Part shown: positions 3,618 to 14,265 of the stretch, piece after piece
Layout of the letters: each line of letters begins with the position of its first letter
Numbering within the stretch: the stretch's first letter is position 1
Assembly: GCA_017399175.1 (NCBI GenBank)
Contig: JAFQEE010000023.1
Coordinates: forward strand, 1 to 64,000
DNA length: 64,000 bases
Direction: 5' to 3'
From: Clostridia bacterium
Lineage (GTDB): Bacteria; Bacillota; Clostridia; Oscillospirales; Acutalibacteraceae
The notes under the pieces: generated by a model
Told to the model about the DNA's origin: nothing
The model's input: only the letters and a program-made list of their open reading frames with translations
Databases searched by the model: none
Position numbers and translations under genes: made by a program

Positions 3618-4265
3618 TCAAATTTCTCTTATTAATAATCTTGGTATGCCCAATATTCTGCATTGTTCCAAATCGCTATTTGTAATTTCTTTAGGCTTGT
3701 ATTGAGGATTTATAGGAACAAGTTTCATCCAATCTTCGCCGTCAACATATTCGACCTTTTTAAGTGTTGCGTTTTCTCCTTCATAGAGAACTGCACCGAT
3801 TTCACCGCTATGATTAAGTGTTGACTGACGAAGAATTAAAACTTTATCACCATCCATATAAAGAGGATACATAGAATCTCCCTTAACGGAGAGGACAAAG
3901 TATTCCTCTTTTTTTCTGCCCTTTAAGTATGTAAGTGGAATTTCAACGGTTTCACCACTCCAGTTTTCGACTGCTATTTCATCATATCCTGCAGCAATAG
4001 AACCAACAACAGGGAATGTGACTGTTTCAAAAGTCAGATTAGGATGCCTTAGTTTATATTTTTGTTCTTCACCAATAAGATATGATAAATTGACATTAAA
4101 AAAATCTGCAATTGCTTCAAGTGTTTCAAAATCTGGTGTACGATTGCCGTTTTCATACATCGAGATAGCACTTTTGGATATCTTTAATTTATCAGCTAAC
4201 TCATCTTGGGTTAACTGCTCTTTTTTTCGCAAGTTTCTTAAAATTTCAGAAAAAAGTATTGGCAT
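3618..4265 (-). CDS. CI-like repressor (HTH_3 plus S24/LexA peptidase)
   Basis: 215 residues. The N-terminal helix-turn-helix (about 6-60, LTQDELADKLKISKSAISMY) binds DNA. The C-terminal half is an S24 peptidase with nucleophile S131 (KGDSMYP), a lysine near 169 (TLKKVEY) and an Ala-Gly cleavage site near 92-93 (GSIAAGYDE). It should therefore autocleave with RecA filaments and induce the prophage on DNA damage. ATG 4265 follows a GAGGTGG ribosome site. It is divergent from a Cro-like gene, and several copies of a partial palindrome lie between them. Confidence 0.93.
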   Translation of the reverse strand: MPILFSEILRNLRKKEQLTQDELADKLKISKSAISMYENGNRTPDFETLEAIADFFNVNLSYLIGEEQKYKLRHPNLTFETVTFPVVGSIAAGYDEIAVENWSGETVEIPLTYLKGRKKEEYFVLSVKGDSMYPLYMDGDKVLILRQSTLNHSGEIGAVLYEGENATLKKVEYVDGEDWMKLVPINPQYKPKEITNSDLEQCRILGIPRLLIREI

Positions 4266-4283
4266 AATTACCACCTCAATGGA

Positions 4284-4365: not shown

Positions 4366-4382
4366 GTACACGATATGTGAAC
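4366..4382. promoter_or_regulatory. Operator at the cro transcription start
   Basis: GTACACGATATGTGAAC shares the CACGAWATGTGA core with 4290-4302. A fourth, partial match (GTACACGAAATGTAAAC) lies at the 3' end of the cro-like gene, 4611-4627. Confidence 0.65.
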
Positions 4383-4394
4383 AGAGGTGAAATA

Positions 4395-4625
4395 ATGGAA
4401 AAGTTAGTAATAGATAAAGAAAAAATGGCAGAAAAATTGAAACAATTTAGAGGGGATAAGACCCAAAAAGAAGTGTGTTTAGATGTAGGGATAACGCCAT
4501 CGGCTCTTGCAATGTATGAAACAGGTGAAAGGGTTCCACGTGATGAAATTAAAGTCGTTCTTGCTAATTATTATCACACAACAATAAATGAACTTTTTTT
4601 TAACCTAAAAGTACACGAAATGTAA
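4395..4625 (+). CDS. Cro-like HTH regulator
   Basis: 76 residues, almost entirely an HTH_3 domain (KLKQFRGDKTQKEVCLDVGITPSALAMYETG). The start at 4395 follows GAGGTGA. It is the first rightward gene after the early promoter and probably opposes the CI-like repressor at the shared operators. A further operator-like sequence overlaps its 3' end, which may allow repression downstream. Assignment as the lytic switch protein rests on position and size. Confidence 0.85.
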   Translation: MEKLVIDKEKMAEKLKQFRGDKTQKEVCLDVGITPSALAMYETGERVPRDEIKVVLANYYHTTINELFFNLKVHEM

Positions 4626-6824: not shown

Positions 6825-7463
6825 ATGGTAGGACATCGATATACAGATGAAGAACACGAGTTCTTAAGAAGTTATATACCGGGACATACATACAAAGAGA
6901 TAGTAGAAGCATATAACCAAAGATTCAAAGAACCTATTACAGCATCGAGAGTCAAAGGATATATAGGAAATCACAAACTAAATACCGGTAAAACAGGCAG
7001 ATTTGAAAAAGGTCATGTTCCGTTTAATAAAGGTATTAAAGGTATGTGTGCTGAAGGTTGTGAAAAAACATGGTTTAAAAAAGGTAACTTACCGCACAAC
7101 ACAAAGCCCATTGGATATGAAAGAATTACAAAAGATGGTTATATTGAAGTAAAAGTAAAAATGCGACCGAGTAACCATGATTGTAATGATAATTTTGTTG
7201 CAAAACACCGCCTTGTATGGGAACAGGTGAATGGTCCTATACCAAAAGGCTATAAGCTAATATTTTTAGATGGAAACAAGCAAAATTGTGTTCTTGAGAA
7301 TCTTGCACTTGTAAGTGAAGCTGAACTGTTGCAAATGACAAGAAATGGATTGCGAAGTGATTCATCAGAATTAACAGAAACAGGTGTTCTTATTGCGAGA
7401 GCAGGCGTTGCAATGTATAAGGCAAGGAAAAAATCGCATCAGCGGAAAAGAGGAAAACTATGA
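6825..7463 (+). CDS. HNH endonuclease (homing-type, NUMOD/HNH_3-like)
   Basis: 212 residues. The N-terminal region (about 5-55) resembles a small DNA-binding domain (YTDEEHEFLRSYIPGHTYKEI). GRFEKGHVPFNKGIKG and FKKGNLPHNT form a repeated linker. The HNH core is KHRLVWEQVNGPIPKGY, then LIFLDGNKQNCVLENL, with His near 127 and the Asn residues of the fold visible. Such genes are common free-standing nucleases in Firmicutes phages. Its TGA overlaps the next start. Confidence 0.85.
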   Translation: MVGHRYTDEEHEFLRSYIPGHTYKEIVEAYNQRFKEPITASRVKGYIGNHKLNTGKTGRFEKGHVPFNKGIKGMCAEGCEKTWFKKGNLPHNTKPIGYERITKDGYIEVKVKMRPSNHDCNDNFVAKHRLVWEQVNGPIPKGYKLIFLDGNKQNCVLENLALVSEAELLQMTRNGLRSDSSELTETGVLIARAGVAMYKARKKSHQRKRGKL

Positions 7464-7715: not shown

Positions 7716-8339
7716 ATGAGTAAAGTAACAGTAGTTCCAGCAGATGGAAAAATTATTATTGAGAATGTACCTAATGAAATGATTAGGTCCCTTCTTGGTA
7801 ATGGAACTCTCACAACGCTCAATAAAATTGAGCCTGGTGAAGTAGTAAAGGCGGGAATGTTTGAGATTATTGTTCTCGAGCATCTTGAGGAAGGAACAGC
7901 AATTATTTTCAAAAATGCTCTTGAAAAGAGAATGCAGTTTGACTCTAAATCAGGTAATTGGATTTCAAGTGATTTGAGAAACTATCTCAATACTGATTTC
8001 TATAAAACACTTTCAATGAATTTTGGTGCTGAAAACATTATTGAACATACAGTTGACCTTACAACTGTTGAGGGTAGTAAAAAGTATGGTTCAGTGCAGG
8101 ATAAGGTAAGTCTTTTAACCTGCAGTCTTTTCAGTAAGTACCACGATATTCTTGAAAAATACAAACTTGATAAATGGTGGTGGCTCTGTACACCTATTGA
8201 TGTACCCGGTTGGGAGGATTGCGCCCGCGCCGTCTACGGCATTGGGATACTTTACTACTTCAGCTGCTACATTGACGGTGGGGTTCGCCCGTTTTGTATC
8301 TTAAAATCTAATATCTTTGTATCTAAAGTGGAGGAATAA
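7716..8339 (+). CDS. DGR variable protein 1 (DUF6273/C-type-lectin fold)
   Basis: 207 residues after AAAGGAGTG. A 45-residue N-terminal extension precedes a DUF6273-like domain: ISSDLRNYLNTDF, a conserved helix, KWWWLCTPIDVPGWEDCARAV, then the variable segment and DGGVRPF. That fold displays hypervariable residues on its surface in DGR targets. The variable repeat (8219-8294) differs from the template only at template adenines. A 15-residue tail follows. The function is probably binding, but the location among early genes leaves the partner unknown. Confidence 0.9.
   Translation: MSKVTVVPADGKIIIENVPNEMIRSLLGNGTLTTLNKIEPGEVVKAGMFEIIVLEHLEEGTAIIFKNALEKRMQFDSKSGNWISSDLRNYLNTDFYKTLSMNFGAENIIEHTVDLTTVEGSKKYGSVQDKVSLLTCSLFSKYHDILEKYKLDKWWWLCTPIDVPGWEDCARAVYGIGILYYFSCYIDGGVRPFCILKSNIFVSKVEE
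8219..8294 (+). repeat. DGR variable repeat VR1
   Basis: 76 bp aligned without gaps to TR 9284-9359. Identical blocks at both ends (16 and 21 bp) enclose a 14-codon core with 12 substitutions, each opposite a template A. The 3' block contains a small GGG-TTCG-CCC hairpin, a possible part of the mutagenic-homing start site. Confidence 0.95.
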
Positions 8340-8343
8340 AACT

Positions 8344-8862
8344 ATGACATTAGCAGAAATTCAAGTAGGAAATACTTGTAAAACAGAAACAATGGAGCAC
8401 ATCGTTCTTGAACATCTTCCTGATGGTAAAACAGTTTGCCTTTCAAAAGACATCGTTACTTCAATGGCATACGATAAGAAGACAGGCATCTATACCAATT
8501 CAAATATCCGTAAGTACCTCAATTCAAAGTTCTTGGACAAGCTTACAAAAGAGGTTGGTGCAGAAAATATTATTGAGCATACAGTTGACCTTACATCTGA
8601 TGAAGGTAGTAAGAAACACGGCTCGGTAACAGATAAAGTCAGTCTTTTGACTTGTGAACTTTTCCGTAAATATAACGAAATCCTTGAAAAGTACAATCCT
8701 GGTCGTTGGTGGTGGCTTGCTACTCCTTTTGCTATTGAGTATTGGGAAGATTGCGCCCGCGCCGTCTACGGCAGTGGGGTACTTCACTACTACCTCTACA
8801 TCATTGACGGTGGGGTTCGCCCGTTTTATATCTTAAATTCTTCAATCTCTGTATCTGAATAA
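8344..8862 (+). CDS. DGR variable protein 2 (DUF6273/C-type-lectin fold)
   Basis: 172 residues, start at 8344 after GTGGAGG. It is a shorter paralogue of the preceding protein: both share EHxVLEHL..G, SxxRxYLN, ENIIEHTVDLT..EGSKK.GSV.DKVSLLTC and WWWL.TP. The variable segment (VR2, 8751-8826) again ends DGGVRPF. Two targets in tandem served by one template point to target gene duplication. It lacks the first paralogue's N-terminal extension. Confidence 0.9.
   Translation: MTLAEIQVGNTCKTETMEHIVLEHLPDGKTVCLSKDIVTSMAYDKKTGIYTNSNIRKYLNSKFLDKLTKEVGAENIIEHTVDLTSDEGSKKHGSVTDKVSLLTCELFRKYNEILEKYNPGRWWWLATPFAIEYWEDCARAVYGSGVLHYYLYIIDGGVRPFYILNSSISVSE
8751..8826 (+). repeat. DGR variable repeat VR2
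   Basis: 76 bp aligned without gaps to TR 9284-9359; 12 substitutions, all at template adenines. VR1 and VR2 share some changes (codons 1, 2, 4 and 13 of the core) but differ at others, so both have been rewritten at least partly independently. Confidence 0.95.
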
Positions 8863-8872
8863 GGAGAATTCT

Positions 8873-9256
8873 ATGGGACAAGACAAACCAAATGATAAGG
8901 AAATGCAAGTAATAATTAAAGCGAAAGAGTTGGCAGCTTACACTTTGGGAATTACCTCAAACAGTAAGAACTTCCCTAAAAAATTCCGCTTTACACTTGT
9001 AGATAAAATGCAAACGAGAAGCTTTAACATCTATGAGAGCTTGCTCGAAGCAAATCGCACACGCATTGAAAATAAGATAATCCGTGGAGATTTGCAAACA
9101 AAAGCAATTACATATTGCGAAGAATTGCAGTTTTATATCGAACTTTCCTTAATGAACAATATCATCACACCACAGAGGGCGGAGTTTTGGTCCGGTCTTG
9201 TCACCGATATAAAGCGTATGACTATTGCATGGAGAAAAAGGGATAAAGATAGATAA
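8873..9256 (+). CDS. avd: DGR accessory variability determinant (Avd)
   Basis: 127-residue, all-helical, Lys/Arg-rich protein (KAKELAAYTLGITSNSKNFPKKFRFTLVDKM is split by family-typical spacing; IENKIIRGD and EELQFYIELSLMNNIIT follow). It matches the Avd four-helix bundle related to S23 proteins, which binds the RT and template RNA as a pentamer. It lies 10 bases after target 2 and just before the TR, the standard order target-avd-TR-RT. Confidence 0.9.
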   Translation: MGQDKPNDKEMQVIIKAKELAAYTLGITSNSKNFPKKFRFTLVDKMQTRSFNIYESLLEANRTRIENKIIRGDLQTKAITYCEELQFYIELSLMNNIITPQRAEFWSGLVTDIKRMTIAWRKRDKDR

Positions 9257-9261
9257 AGCAC

Positions 9262-9428
9262 AGGCTATGCGTTGTCCGTTTTTTTGCGCCCGCGCCGTCA
9301 ACAACAATGGAATACTTAACTACAACAACTACAACAATGACGGTGGGGTTCGCCCGTTTCGGTGGAAAGTGAGAAAGAGTAGGCAGTACGCCGAAATCAG
9401 TGCACCACATCAAAAGAACGCATAGCCT
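9262..9428 (+). ncRNA. DGR template RNA element closed by a 12-bp inverted repeat
   Basis: AGGCTATGCGTT at 9262-9273 is perfectly complementary to AACGCATAGCCT at 9417-9428. The pair encloses the TR plus 57 nt downstream of it. In known DGRs the TR transcript and its downstream spacer form a structured RNA bound by RT-Avd. The boundaries here suggest a closed RNA domain of 167 nt. Confidence 0.75.
9284..9359 (+). repeat. DGR template repeat (TR)
   Basis: 76-bp template for VR1 and VR2, rich in AAC codons (AAC AAC AAT ... AAC TAC AAC AAC TAC AAC AAT), which diversify broadly while avoiding stop codons when A is randomised. It lies between avd and the reverse transcriptase and is not itself needed as protein code. 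Confidence 0.95.
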
Positions 9429-9442
9429 TTCCCTTTGATATT

Positions 9443-10474
9443 ATGACAGATTTTGAAAAGGTAACATCCTTTGAAAACTTATACCGGGCATATCGCACAG
9501 CAAAACGTGGTAAAGGATATAAGGGAAGTTCCGCAAGGTTTGGGACAATGGCTCTTGACGGAGTGAATATACTCAAAGAATTACTTATAAATCATGAATA
9601 TCGGATACGAGGTTATTCTGAATTCAAGGTTTATGAGCCAAAGGAAAGAGTTATAAAAGCCGGTGCTTTTGTAGATAAGATTGTGCAGCATAGTCTTTGT
9701 GACAATGTTCTTTTGCCGAAACTTGCCTCTGTATTCATTCGTAATAACTTTGCTGGACAGATTGGTAAAGGGACACTATTCGGTTTAGAAACACTTAAAA
9801 AAGATATGTATGATGCCTATACCATACACGGTATGAACATCTACATATTAAAAGCAGATGTAACCAAATTCTTTTATAACATTGACCACGAGATATTAAA
9901 GAAACTCGTGGCCGAACAATTTGATGATGACGGTATCAGATGGCTCTGTAATCTTATTATCGATAGCACCGATGGAAAAGGTTTACCATTAGGTAATCAG
10001 ACATCACAGGTGTTTGCTCTCCTTTATCTTAACGGATTGGACCATTACATAACAGAAACACTCGGTATTCAATATTACGGCAGATATATGGATGATTTCT
10101 ATTTGATTCATCAGGATAAGGAATACCTTAAATACTGTCTTAAAAAGATTACTGAATATGTAGAACACCTTCAATTATCTTTAAATGGTAAAACACAGAT
10201 TATGCCATTTAAGAATGGTATTAAGTTTCTTGGATTTCATACTTATATTCGTGACGGTAAGGTTGTTTGTAAGATAAGGAACGAGAATAAGCGTAATGCT
10301 GTTCGCAAATATAAAAAGATGGCCAAGCTTGTCGTAGAGGGTAAGCTTAGCCGTGAAAAGTTTATTGAATGCTATACATCTTGGAAAGCACACGCATCAC
10401 ACGGTGATTGTGATGGGCTTATCTATAATCTCGATGAACAGATTGAGAAAATATTAAGAGGTGAAAATGAATGA
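9443..10474 (+). CDS. DGR reverse transcriptase
   Basis: 343 residues. Motif A has D139 (KADVTKFFYNIDH). The DGR-type motif LGNQTSQ is at 183-189, and the catalytic YMDD is at 215-218, followed by a thumb ending FLGFHTY. With Avd it copies the TR RNA with adenine-specific errors, and the cDNA replaces VR. The length fits the compact DGR class, without maturase or integrase domains. The stop overlaps the next gene (ATGATGA-like), so it is part of the early operon. Confidence 0.96.
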   Translation: MTDFEKVTSFENLYRAYRTAKRGKGYKGSSARFGTMALDGVNILKELLINHEYRIRGYSEFKVYEPKERVIKAGAFVDKIVQHSLCDNVLLPKLASVFIRNNFAGQIGKGTLFGLETLKKDMYDAYTIHGMNIYILKADVTKFFYNIDHEILKKLVAEQFDDDGIRWLCNLIIDSTDGKGLPLGNQTSQVFALLYLNGLDHYITETLGIQYYGRYMDDFYLIHQDKEYLKYCLKKITEYVEHLQLSLNGKTQIMPFKNGIKFLGFHTYIRDGKVVCKIRNENKRNAVRKYKKMAKLVVEGKLSREKFIECYTSWKAHASHGDCDGLIYNLDEQIEKILRGENE

Positions 10475-10800
10475 TACATGAATTAAAAGAACATCCTGAA
10501 TTCTTTGAAGATGTGATTTCGGGTAAGAAAACATTTGAAGTGAGAAAAGCTGACCGTAATTTTAAGGTCGGAGACCTGCTTGCATTGAATGAATATAATC
10601 CTGATTCAAAGGAATACACAAATCGCTGCTGTTTGGTGTACATAGATTATATTCTTAATGATTCTAATTACTGTAAAGAAGATTATGTAATTCTCAATAT
10701 AAAGCCTTGTGCAGTAATCAAAAAGAATTCACCAAGATGTGAGTATGCATTTGAATTTGATTATTCGGTGCCAGAATTAAGTGAGGTAAAGCCAATATGA
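10471..10800 (+). CDS. DUF3850 (ASCH/PUA-like) protein
   Basis: 109 residues: IHELKEHPEFFEDVISGKKTFEVRK, then DRNFKVGDLLALNEYN is the DUF3850 signature, a small beta-barrel related to ASCH/PUA nucleic-acid-binding domains and common in phages. It overlaps the RT gene by four bases and the next gene by four bases. The specific role is unknown. Confidence 0.85.
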   Translation: MIHELKEHPEFFEDVISGKKTFEVRKADRNFKVGDLLALNEYNPDSKEYTNRCCLVYIDYILNDSNYCKEDYVILNIKPCAVIKKNSPRCEYAFEFDYSVPELSEVKPI

Positions 10801-11806: not shown

Positions 11807-11956
11807 AAGAGTACATTATATATGCACTTTTCTAACAACAATAGTATATCATAATGTGCTCAAAAAGTCAAACAAAACGGGGACGAAAAGAGTCCCTTGG
11901 TGGCCTCGTATTGTATAGTAACAACTCAACCATTTTATATTTAGGAGTACATAAAA

Positions 11957-12364
11957 ATGAATGCTTATAATCAAAGTCAATGTCAAGTCAAGTCAGGGGG
12001 ATTTATCTCCACCTTGCAGAAAGTTAAAGAGCAGATAAATTTTGAATACTTTCAGAGAAATTTTGAAAAAGACGAAGTGAAACAGATAATCGAATTCTGC
12101 AACATAATGGCAGATGTTCTTACCCTTCCACAAGAAACACTTGTTGTTATCGGAAAAGAACAGAGAAAAGCATCTACTGTTCAGGAAGTGTACGGACTTC
12201 TTGATGAAAGACACATTGAAACTGTACTTGTGAATTTTAATCAAGTGCGTTATGAAATCAAGAGTTTGAAAACATATATTCGCACAGCTCTCTATAATTC
12301 ATATTTTGAGATGGAGAATAAGGGTGCAAATGAGACAAATGTGAGGATTGCAGAAAATGATTAA
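11957..12364 (+). CDS. DUF6017-like replication-associated protein
   Basis: 135 residues. The C-terminal half (LDERHIETVLVNFNQVR, then EIKSLKTYIRTALYNSYFEME) resembles DUF6017, found at the C-terminus of Firmicutes replication initiators (single helical domain ending in a TALYNA-like motif). No winged-helix initiator domain precedes it here. Overlap with the next gene, a replication initiator, supports a replication role. Confidence 0.65.
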   Translation: MNAYNQSQCQVKSGGFISTLQKVKEQINFEYFQRNFEKDEVKQIIEFCNIMADVLTLPQETLVVIGKEQRKASTVQEVYGLLDERHIETVLVNFNQVRYEIKSLKTYIRTALYNSYFEMENKGANETNVRIAEND

Positions 12365-13277
12365 AGAGAAGATAACAAAAGCAGGGAAATTGTTAGATAT
12401 AGATTTTTATCCTTGCTGGTCTGATGGGAGAAGATTACCAACAGGACCGAAGAAATCAAACGGTTCATCAGAAGCGCAGCAGAAATATAACAACAATCAA
12501 GCGATTAAAGAAGCAGTATTTATCATAAACGAAAACTTTGACAGCAATGATAATATTTTATCTTTGACATTTTCTCCTGAAAATGCACCGCAGGATGAAA
12601 AAGAGTTGCATCGTCATGTCACAAATTACTTCCGTAGGCTTAAAAGACTCCGAAAAAAGGAGCTTGAAAGAGTAACAGAGATGTTAAAAAAATTGCCGGG
12701 TGATGAATTCTTTGATGTTCAGCGGAAAGAACTCGAAATCAAGAAAGCAAAATTAGAAGCTCCCTTTAAGTATTTTTACACAAGGGAAGAAATTGAATAT
12801 CAGCGTGGGCCTTTTAAAGGAAGAAAGAATTATCATCCACACATTTTTATAACAGGTGGTATTGACAGAGATAAATTAGAGGAATTGTGGCCGTTCGGTA
12901 CTCGTTGCAATGCTGACCGTTTTCAGCCTGAACGCTTTGGACCTGAAACAATGGCAAAGTATATGATGAAGGACCCTAAAGGTTATAGAAGATTCTGCTG
13001 TTCTCGTAATATGAGTCGTACATATAAACAGCCAAAGATTAAGACCAGCAGATTATCAGCTGCAGGAGTTGCAAAACTTGCTCAGGAAAGAGTTGACGAT
13101 GCAGCATATTGGGAAAAGAAATACAAAGGTTATCGTTTTGTTCGCAGTTATCCACGATTCAATGAATACAACTGTCATTGGTATATGACTGTGGTAATGT
13201 ATGCAGCCGGTGATGAACCTGTTCCAAAGTGGGATATGGATAATTGGCCGAATGACGATTGGCAGAATAATTTATAA
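12357..13277 (+). CDS. HUH-type replication initiator (rolling-circle Rep)
   Basis: 306 residues. Motif 1-like LSLTFS (about 68-73), motif 2 HPH at 160-162 (NYHPHIFITGG) and motif 3-like KYMMKD (Y202, K205) are in the order of HUH endonucleases. A long helical insertion lies between motifs 1 and 2. It would nick the origin through Y202. It overlaps the DUF6017-like gene by eight bases. It is the only replication enzyme visible in the prophage: no primase, helicase or polymerase gene was found. Confidence 0.75.
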   Translation: MIKEKITKAGKLLDIDFYPCWSDGRRLPTGPKKSNGSSEAQQKYNNNQAIKEAVFIINENFDSNDNILSLTFSPENAPQDEKELHRHVTNYFRRLKRLRKKELERVTEMLKKLPGDEFFDVQRKELEIKKAKLEAPFKYFYTREEIEYQRGPFKGRKNYHPHIFITGGIDRDKLEELWPFGTRCNADRFQPERFGPETMAKYMMKDPKGYRRFCCSRNMSRTYKQPKIKTSRLSAAGVAKLAQERVDDAAYWEKKYKGYRFVRSYPRFNEYNCHWYMTVVMYAAGDEPVPKWDMDNWPNDDWQNNL

Positions 13278-13806: not shown

Positions 13807-14265
13807 ATGAGCGAGAATTCAGCGGAAATTAAAGTTAAATTAAAGCCTCAACAAGAACGTTTCTGTCGAGAATATGTGCTAAATGGTGGAAAGCAAAAAG
13901 AAGCTGCAATCGCTGCTGGGTATTCCAAAAAAACAGCAAGTGTGCAGGCATCAAGATTGTTAACAAATGTTAATATTCTCTCACGCGTACACGCGATACA
14001 GATTGAAGAGTTAAAAAAATTATCAGTTACGCCTGAGTCCGTTATAATGAAATTTTTAGAAATATATGACCGTTGTATGCAGGCTAAACCAGTTATGGAG
14101 TGGGATTATAGTGAGCACAAAATGATTGAAACAGGTGAATACGCATTTGACTCCAAAGGTGCTATAAATGCACTTACAAAAATTGGTGATTATCTTGCAA
14201 TGTTCAAACAAAATGTAAATGTCAATGGTGAATTAAGTGTAAGTAAGCTGGAAGACCTATTATGA
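13807..14265 (+). CDS. terS: Terminase small subunit
   Basis: 152 residues. LKPQQERFCREYVLNGGKQKEAA, then AGYSKKTASVQASRLLTN is the Terminase_2 N-terminal helix-turn-helix that recognises pac/cos DNA; the C-terminus would contact TerL. Overlaps terL by four bases. Confidence 0.93.
   Translation: MSENSAEIKVKLKPQQERFCREYVLNGGKQKEAAIAAGYSKKTASVQASRLLTNVNILSRVHAIQIEELKKLSVTPESVIMKFLEIYDRCMQAKPVMEWDYSEHKMIETGEYAFDSKGAINALTKIGDYLAMFKQNVNVNGELSVSKLEDLL

Follow-up and report, generated by a model that had tools for sequence, protein, structure and literature searches.

A diversity-generating retroelement with two DUF6273 targets among the lysogeny and replication genes of a Clostridia prophage, and an RNA panhandle around its template

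The stretch of DNA analyzed here (the window) comprises 64,000 nucleotides (nt) of Clostridia bacterium (assembly GCA_017399175.1, contig JAFQEE010000023.1) and carries, within a prophage, a complete diversity-generating retroelement (DGR). In the clade to which this element belongs, the recognizable neighbors of the cassette are genes of lysogeny and replication, whereas on other branches of the reverse transcriptase (RT) tree they are tail genes. The second principal feature is a covarying RNA panhandle that encloses the template. The element itself is of an already known kind, and its novelty is lowered because two-target DGRs of gut phages are in the literature; what is new, and goes beyond the earlier note on this DNA, is the early-module clade and the panhandle. 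As an explanation of the whole, we regard it as highly probable that a temperate phage in the window carries a complete DGR in its early region, with a panhandle-held template and, most likely, early-made binders of lectin-fold type as its targets.

All parts of the cassette lie on the + strand in the order given by the earlier note, i.e., target 1 (T1), target 2 (T2), avd, template repeat (TR), and RT, and its description as a complete DGR with two tandem targets was confirmed, RT, avd, and both targets being recognized by Pfam and PHROGs. The RT (9443–10474, 343 aa) contains the motifs YMDD and LGNQTSQ, the latter of which we take to be a mark of DGR-class RTs. A profile search of this protein for the DGR class returned PHROG 1423 (6.5e-109), as well as Pfam RVT_1, and its best match among solved structures is 8ub7, ‘Reverse transcriptase’ (1.1e-34). 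The accessory protein Avd (8873–9256, 127 aa) matches PHROG 3206, ‘Avd protein of DGR’ (2.5e-21), and, under the curated cut-off, Pfam bAvd (1e-6); its profile found no chain in the PDB at E 0.1, and neither did that of T1. T1 (ATG at 7716, stop at 8339; 207 aa), with an N-terminal stretch conserved in the family, and T2 (8344–8862, 172 aa) are both DUF6273 proteins above the Pfam cut-off. They carry at their 3′ ends, in frame, the variable regions (VRs) VR1 (8219–8294) and VR2 (8751–8826). No Pfam domain besides DUF6273 was found in either, hence no tail or Ig anchoring domain by Pfam. DUF6273 has been called lectin-like on the basis of AlphaFold models (PMC10743442).

Position of the cassette in the early module

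As relatives, 159 RT-bearing loci were fetched (80 viral, 79 from genome contigs, near-copies of one phage included), which are designated by L and a number. A TR/VR pair was found in 135 of the 160 loci, counting the window, and 134 of these (L162 has a pair but no target open reading frame, ORF) were sorted automatically, with two upstream targets in 48, a single upstream target in 54, and a target beyond the RT in 32. Two of the 54 single-target loci (L014 and L074) truly have two targets. In two-target loci, the targets usually lie ~1050 and ~510 nt 5′ of the TR.

In the RT tree (85 rows; L015 and L152 were too short to include), the upstream-target loci form one branch with 100/100 support, comprising 56 rows (40 two-target and 16 single-target) and no tail-type row, the tail-type rows being the target-beyond-RT loci together with five published phages. 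All 133 RT matches in an annotated phage collection are below 60% identity, the best being nd12 with 49%. Of 398 genomes sampled from the host family, 9 contain an RT match at E 1e-60, one of these being the genome of the window itself; the two best matches after it share 62% and 61% identity, and at that threshold the host genus, with five other genomes, has no further match. A tree of the targets includes a clean T2 branch across most of the clade (25 T2 rows and one single-target row, 100/100). One ancient duplication kept throughout was considered as the origin of T1 and T2; in the window the two group together with weak support (93/76), so it is not claimed there. Some single-target DGRs (L026, L030, L071, L045, L051, L058, and L107–L113) are set apart by a distinct N-terminal target stretch, MCxFKSGI...; the named ones are mostly from Lachnospiraceae, cysteine is not depleted in their VRs (six seen, six expected), and near-identical loci among them differ at up to 15 template adenines.

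The flanks were scanned for part of the neighboring ORFs, and the family figures refer to the 25 commonest families; the two-target loci were reduced to 40, and L153, which is without a TR/VR pair, is absent from these lists. Upstream of the two-target cassettes (122 of 189 ORFs), HTH_3 was found 10 times, integrase domains 5–6 times, S24 four times, and RecT, SSB, and ParB three times each, with no tail or capsid family among the best 25 of 81. Ten further upstream ORFs yielded PcfJ, DUF3102, and DNA methylases in seven and nothing in three. Downstream (144 of 235 ORFs), the best 25 of 77 families include REP_ORF2-G2P (11), terminase families (6–8), SSAP_Sak (4), SSB (3), and portal (3). Queries with the proteins of the window gave terminase or portal matches in ten loci, all downstream of the RT (L008, L012, L019, L031, L059, L078, L088, L101, L119, and L140), and integrase or repressor matches in twelve, all upstream (L015, L022, L023, L027, L091, L094, L095, L097, L098, L101, L105, and L153); L022, L023, and L091 are one phage, and L031 starts at the RT, its upstream side being outside the data. 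Among other loci, L124, with its target beyond the RT, has an integrase and a repressor upstream, and the distant L165 has an integrase downstream. Upstream of 23 target-beyond-RT loci (98 of 147 ORFs), the best 25 of 31 families include Baseplate_J (14), YQBQ (11), Tail_P2_I (8), and Phage_tail_fib (7), with single matches each for integrase, S24, and HTH_3. A further 16 loci with an upstream target (122 ORFs scanned of 179) show no tail family among the best 25 of 74; many of their neighbors are metabolic or unclassified, which makes the module of these loci less sure.

In the window, the cassette is preceded by genes for a CI-type repressor (3618–4274, − strand) and an HNH endonuclease (6825–7463, + strand), and followed on the + strand by a DUF3850/ASCH gene (10471–10800), a replication initiation protein (12348–13277), and the terminase small subunit (13807–14265), with which the packaging and structural module begins; no tail or baseplate gene adjoins it. 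The left side of the prophage also includes the integrase (350–1546, − strand), and the right side a portal, a major head protein, an endolysin, and a holin. The RT stop codon and the ATG of the DUF3850/ASCH gene overlap, and T1 begins 19 nt past the ORF before it, so that the cassette appears to be embedded in an operon. Adjoining the structural genes is a 2357-aa phage protein (26571–33644) with a MuF C-terminal match and an ART-PolyVal match (ADP-ribosyltransferase-like) below the cut-off, a polyvalent protein.

A similar location was found for the second VR of some published phages. In nd4, nd12, Lelie, FP_Brigit, and FP_Toutatis, one VR is in a long target adjoining the RT and another is distant. 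Compared with the TR, the distant VR differs at adenines and at other bases in 13 and 4 positions in nd4 over 85 nt (9 and 1 over the inner 77), 13 and 1 in nd12, 15 and 2 in Lelie, 9 and 3 in FP_Brigit, and 13 and 1 in FP_Toutatis, and the matches extend over 78–104 nt, compared with 35–40 nt for the longest chance match in 100 shuffled TR regions per phage. The genes that carry them resemble T1 and T2 of L095; the DUF6273 label is in the record for FP_Toutatis only, comes from similarity for FP_Brigit, and is published for nd4 and nd12 (PMC10743442) and for Lelie (PMC11792537). In FP_Brigit (NC_047909, VR at 4369–4452), the distant gene comes after genes for an integrase, a repressor, and a Cro-like protein and before an exonuclease, RecT, and a replisome organizer; in FP_Toutatis (NC_047915, VR at 11932–12035), it lies between the repressor and the replication initiator. 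These second VRs match TRs located in the tail modules. The distant gene of nd4 has SSB and DnaC downstream of it and abuts the gene for the DNA polymerase III alpha subunit, while in Lelie and nd12 the neighbors are mostly unannotated and the module is less sure. Among the papers brought up by searches of the Creative Commons-licensed literature in PubMed Central (PMC), none names an early-module DGR in its title or at the beginning of its abstract, and the available parts of PMC10743442, PMC11792537, and PMC8144416 do not remark on the early position.

An RNA panhandle encloses the template

The 76-nt TR (9284–9359) and the spacer that separates it from the RT gene are enclosed by two complementary arms, AGGCTATGCGTT (9262–9273) and AACGCATAGCCT (9417–9428), which pair perfectly over 12 bp. 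In an alignment of 40 loci (the window and 39 relatives), all 12 pairs are retained in 27 rows and 11 in the other 13, with both-sided changes at 9 of the 12 pairs. A short GGC...GCC hairpin in the spacer (9382–9392) has one of its three pairs changed on both sides among relatives. The covariation score, in which this 3-bp hairpin is counted too, is 0.421 vs 0.199 in shuffles, with none of 500 as high and 0.140 for the best slid version; the rows of the alignment are related, and the shuffle figures are therefore not probabilities. RNAalifold, unaided, recovered 11 of the 12 pairs. In the target-beyond-RT relatives, the best helix has 11–14 contiguous pairs in 21 of 23 loci (L132 and L137 being of other sequence) and beats all 30 of its own shuffles in 15 of 23. 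A panhandle is also present in all five published phages (0–6 of 200 shuffles as good), Lelie and FP_Toutatis sharing the same arms.

Rfam gave no match at the gathering score in positions 8800–9600 of the window, the highest being SNORA27 (25.2 bits, 64 needed), RT-2 RNA (20, 40 needed), and DUF805b (14.1, 35.6 needed), and none in the TR-spacer region of 13 relatives. Nor is a TR panhandle named in the titles or abstract openings of the papers from the same PMC searches. A cryo-electron microscopy paper on the RNA of the Bordetella phage BPP-1 reportedly appeared in 2025 and may describe a counterpart. In BPP-1, the spacer reportedly folds and recruits the RT–Avd complex, and a motif in avd reportedly ends copying (PMC12875486); by analogy, the panhandle could play an equivalent part here.

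Differences between the template and the variable regions

VR1 and VR2 align with the TR without gaps, each matching it at 64 of 76 positions, and, as the earlier note had counted, each has 12 substitutions, all 24 of which fall on template adenines. The TR contains 22 adenines, so that the chance of 12 random differences all falling on adenine is 2.1e-8 per VR; 15 of the adenines are changed in one VR or the other. Differences at non-adenine positions, which the note held would in large number speak against its reading, are absent from both VRs (0 of 54 sites). The similarity of the repeats is sharply bounded, with 37% identity in the 30 nt on the 5′ side and 20% (VR1) or 10% (VR2) in the 30 nt on the 3′ side, and no other 76-mer of the window's + strand agrees with the TR at more than 35 positions. 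The adenine-only differences, the sharp bounds, and the weak next-best 76-mer rule out chance or an ordinary repeat. Of the adenines, nine are changed in both VRs (chance of at least nine, 0.046), six of them to the same base; the latter number was considered as a sign of copying from VR to VR (4.0 expected, p = 0.15). The identical 3′ ends of the VRs (8277–8293 and 8809–8825) give a small GC hairpin with T residues after it, scored as terminator-like, which is possibly part of the retrohoming start site.

In the whole assembly (2.11 Mb, 72 contigs), a TR pattern search with up to three mismatches found three copies, TR, VR1, and VR2, and thus no further remote target; there is a single RVT_1 match. 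Two more DUF6273 genes are located outside the prophage (C57:19561–20043 and C65:22423–22884), with no TR/VR pair inside the stretches fetched around them.

The same alignment in relatives covered 157 distinct TR/VR pairs, of which 31 with more than one non-adenine difference were skipped. The remaining 126 contain 1574 substitutions; the adenine rule holds for most of these (818 to G, 535 to T, 131 to C), and 90 are at other bases, a count biased by a TR/VR finder that favors adenine differences. The nearest relative, L009, has an RT 88% identical to that of the window, and its TR differs at three sites, none of them an adenine. At all three, both VRs of the window and both of L009 bear the base of their own TR, which indicates that TR content was written into both targets after these phages split. 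Such concerted change bears out the past-use part of what the earlier note called recent or active use; the words ‘recent or active’ were overstated, since the current activity of the DGR in the window phage is something that we infer from sequence comparison.

Possible role of the targets

In the proposed mechanism, the 12-nt stretches before the TR and just 5′ of the RT gene would pair in the TR transcript, and the resulting panhandle would hold TR and spacer for the Avd–RT complex and probably mark the point where copying stops. Copying of the TR by the RT would be error-prone opposite adenines, and VR1 in T1 or VR2 in T2 would be replaced by the cDNA. The cassette would be co-transcribed with early genes, and T1 and T2, encoded with lysogeny and replication genes, would be small binders of lectin-fold type. 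Early-made binders are, judged from sequence, the most likely identity of the targets, with an even chance that they act away from the virion, a somewhat smaller one that they are carried on it, and a slight one that neither holds.

Several observations weigh against this interpretation. The position of a gene is no proof of early expression or of a non-virion role, as virion genes of phages may lie outside their usual module; the neighbor evidence comes from a part of the ORFs and from the commonest families, and a scan for promoter-like sequences gave no more hits than chance would (31, against 33.6 expected). Taken as a whole, the RNA of the window exceeds its shuffles in stability by only a moderate margin (z = −1.8; 6 of 200 shuffles reach its stability), and BPP-1 has no panhandle above shuffles, so that the panhandle is not, as shown here, a general feature of DGRs. 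T2 has far fewer cysteines at AAY template codons than expected (6 vs 23.9, 291 codons). No second copy of the window phage was found in viral contigs by the TR pattern, a T1 search of the same contigs having matched only L009 and L008, and corresponding VRs do not differ within any of the ten groups of two-target loci that share at least 99.9% identity over TR–RT. The identity within these groups probably reflects repeated sampling of one population. VRs fixed across populations would, by the earlier note, count against its reading. Among single-target and target-beyond-RT relatives, the VRs of some near-identical pairs differ only at adenines, with an adjoining 400 nt of gene body unchanged (L026/L071 at 12, L124/L127 at 16, and L125/L126 at 16), and those of other such pairs are identical. 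Identical VRs would also be expected of a degraded DGR that no longer works and has frozen VRs; we consider this very unlikely, as RT, avd, and both targets have open reading frames, none of the 54 non-adenine sites has drifted in either VR, and both VRs have received the changes that the TR underwent after the separation from L009.

The place of action of T1 and T2 is a more evenly balanced matter. They may be virion adhesins of an ordinary receptor-binding DGR, their location outside the tail module being without functional meaning, a reading to which we assign a substantial probability, somewhat short of even. It agrees with a published proposal that likens the DUF6273 target of nd4 and nd12 to Mtd (PMC10743442), with the weak PHROG match of both targets to ‘Hoc-like head decoration’ (3.5e-5 and 3.8e-7), and with the VR codons of T2, in which Tyr and Gly are in excess and Cys is depleted. 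The neighbors in the clade, the presence of DUF6273 as the sole Pfam domain, and the arrangement in FP_Brigit, FP_Toutatis, and nd4, where the DUF6273-type gene is in the replication region and the long target beside tail genes, speak against it. Alternatively, T1 and T2 may be made in the infected or lysogenic cell to bind variable ligands, whether from the host or from competing phages, e.g., in superinfection immunity or counter-defense, which we consider possible rather than probable. The consistent early-module position favors such a role, and the absence of a membrane stretch from 78 distinct target ORFs (highest 19-residue mean 1.38), i.e., of any hydrophobic segment long enough for membrane insertion, is as compatible with it as with virion proteins; a Pfam scan of T1 and T2 found no counter-defense domain (the PADLOC library was not searched). 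The two targets differ in their cysteine content at AAY template codons. T1 has 19 (29.0 expected, 331 codons) and tolerates it unlike tail-type targets, which have one (25.3 expected, 326 codons; p = 3.2e-5), whereas T2 is close to the tail type (p = 0.056; T1 vs T2, p = 0.024), which argues against T2 as a cytoplasmic protein; the rows are related and these p values optimistic. Cysteine thus seems to be strongly selected against in tail-type targets and T2, and less so in T1, which does not settle the place of action, and the mixed counts were not used as proof of cytoplasmic residence.

Combining early-made binders with the distant VRs, we can speculate that a clade of temperate gut phages maintains DGRs, with a covarying panhandle, for early-module, non-virion proteins of lectin fold that would act inside the cell against variable components of hosts or competing phages, and that tail-module DGRs would serve the same class of proteins in trans through a distant VR; in this full form, the proposal is slightly more doubtful still. 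The prevailing view of phage DGRs is that they alter host range by way of tail proteins. Should a large clade instead keep a hypervariable pair among repressor, recombination, and replication genes, and should the tail DGRs of other phages write there too, part of the targeted hypermutation of phages may serve purposes beyond adsorption. At the level of sequence, the panhandle offers a way to study the bounds of the template RNA in DGRs that are distant from the Bordetella prototype, and TRs in metagenomes could be easier to find and delimit with its aid.

Comparison with known systems

The prototype, BPP-1, shares with the window the order target, avd, TR, RT, with avd between target and TR, as well as the adenine-directed change (17 differences at adenines and two elsewhere over 125 nt of TR and the VR1 of mtd). 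Unlike the window, it has a single TR-matching target, mtd, located beside tail genes, a TR of 134 nt, and no panhandle that stands out from shuffles. The ‘variable region 2’ annotated in its early-region gene bbp36 (NC_005357, 33229–33558) has no ungapped adenine-type match to the TR.

The Faecalibacterium phages Lelie, CP11, and Lagaffe_CP have two variable regions each, and the targets of Lelie and CP11 carry DUF6273 (PMC11792537). Lelie and two further Faecalibacterium phages, FP_Brigit and FP_Toutatis, each have a local VR and a distant one in a DUF6273-type gene; they differ from the window in that their RTs are 39–41% identical to its RT, the cassette is in the tail module, and there is one small DUF6273 target rather than a tandem pair.

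Close counterparts are nd4 and nd12, in which a single TR is shared by two targets whose VR domains are lectin-like, ‘tentaclin’ and a DUF6273 protein with the VR at its 3′ end (PMC10743442). They have the same kind of panhandle, and the RT of nd12 is the annotated phage RT nearest to that of the window. In both, however, the avd–TR–RT unit adjoins tail or structural genes together with tentaclin, and the second target is ~10 kb (nd4) or 12–13 kb (nd12) away, whereas in the window, where the assembly search gave no further VR, two small DUF6273 genes lie directly 5′ of avd in the early region.

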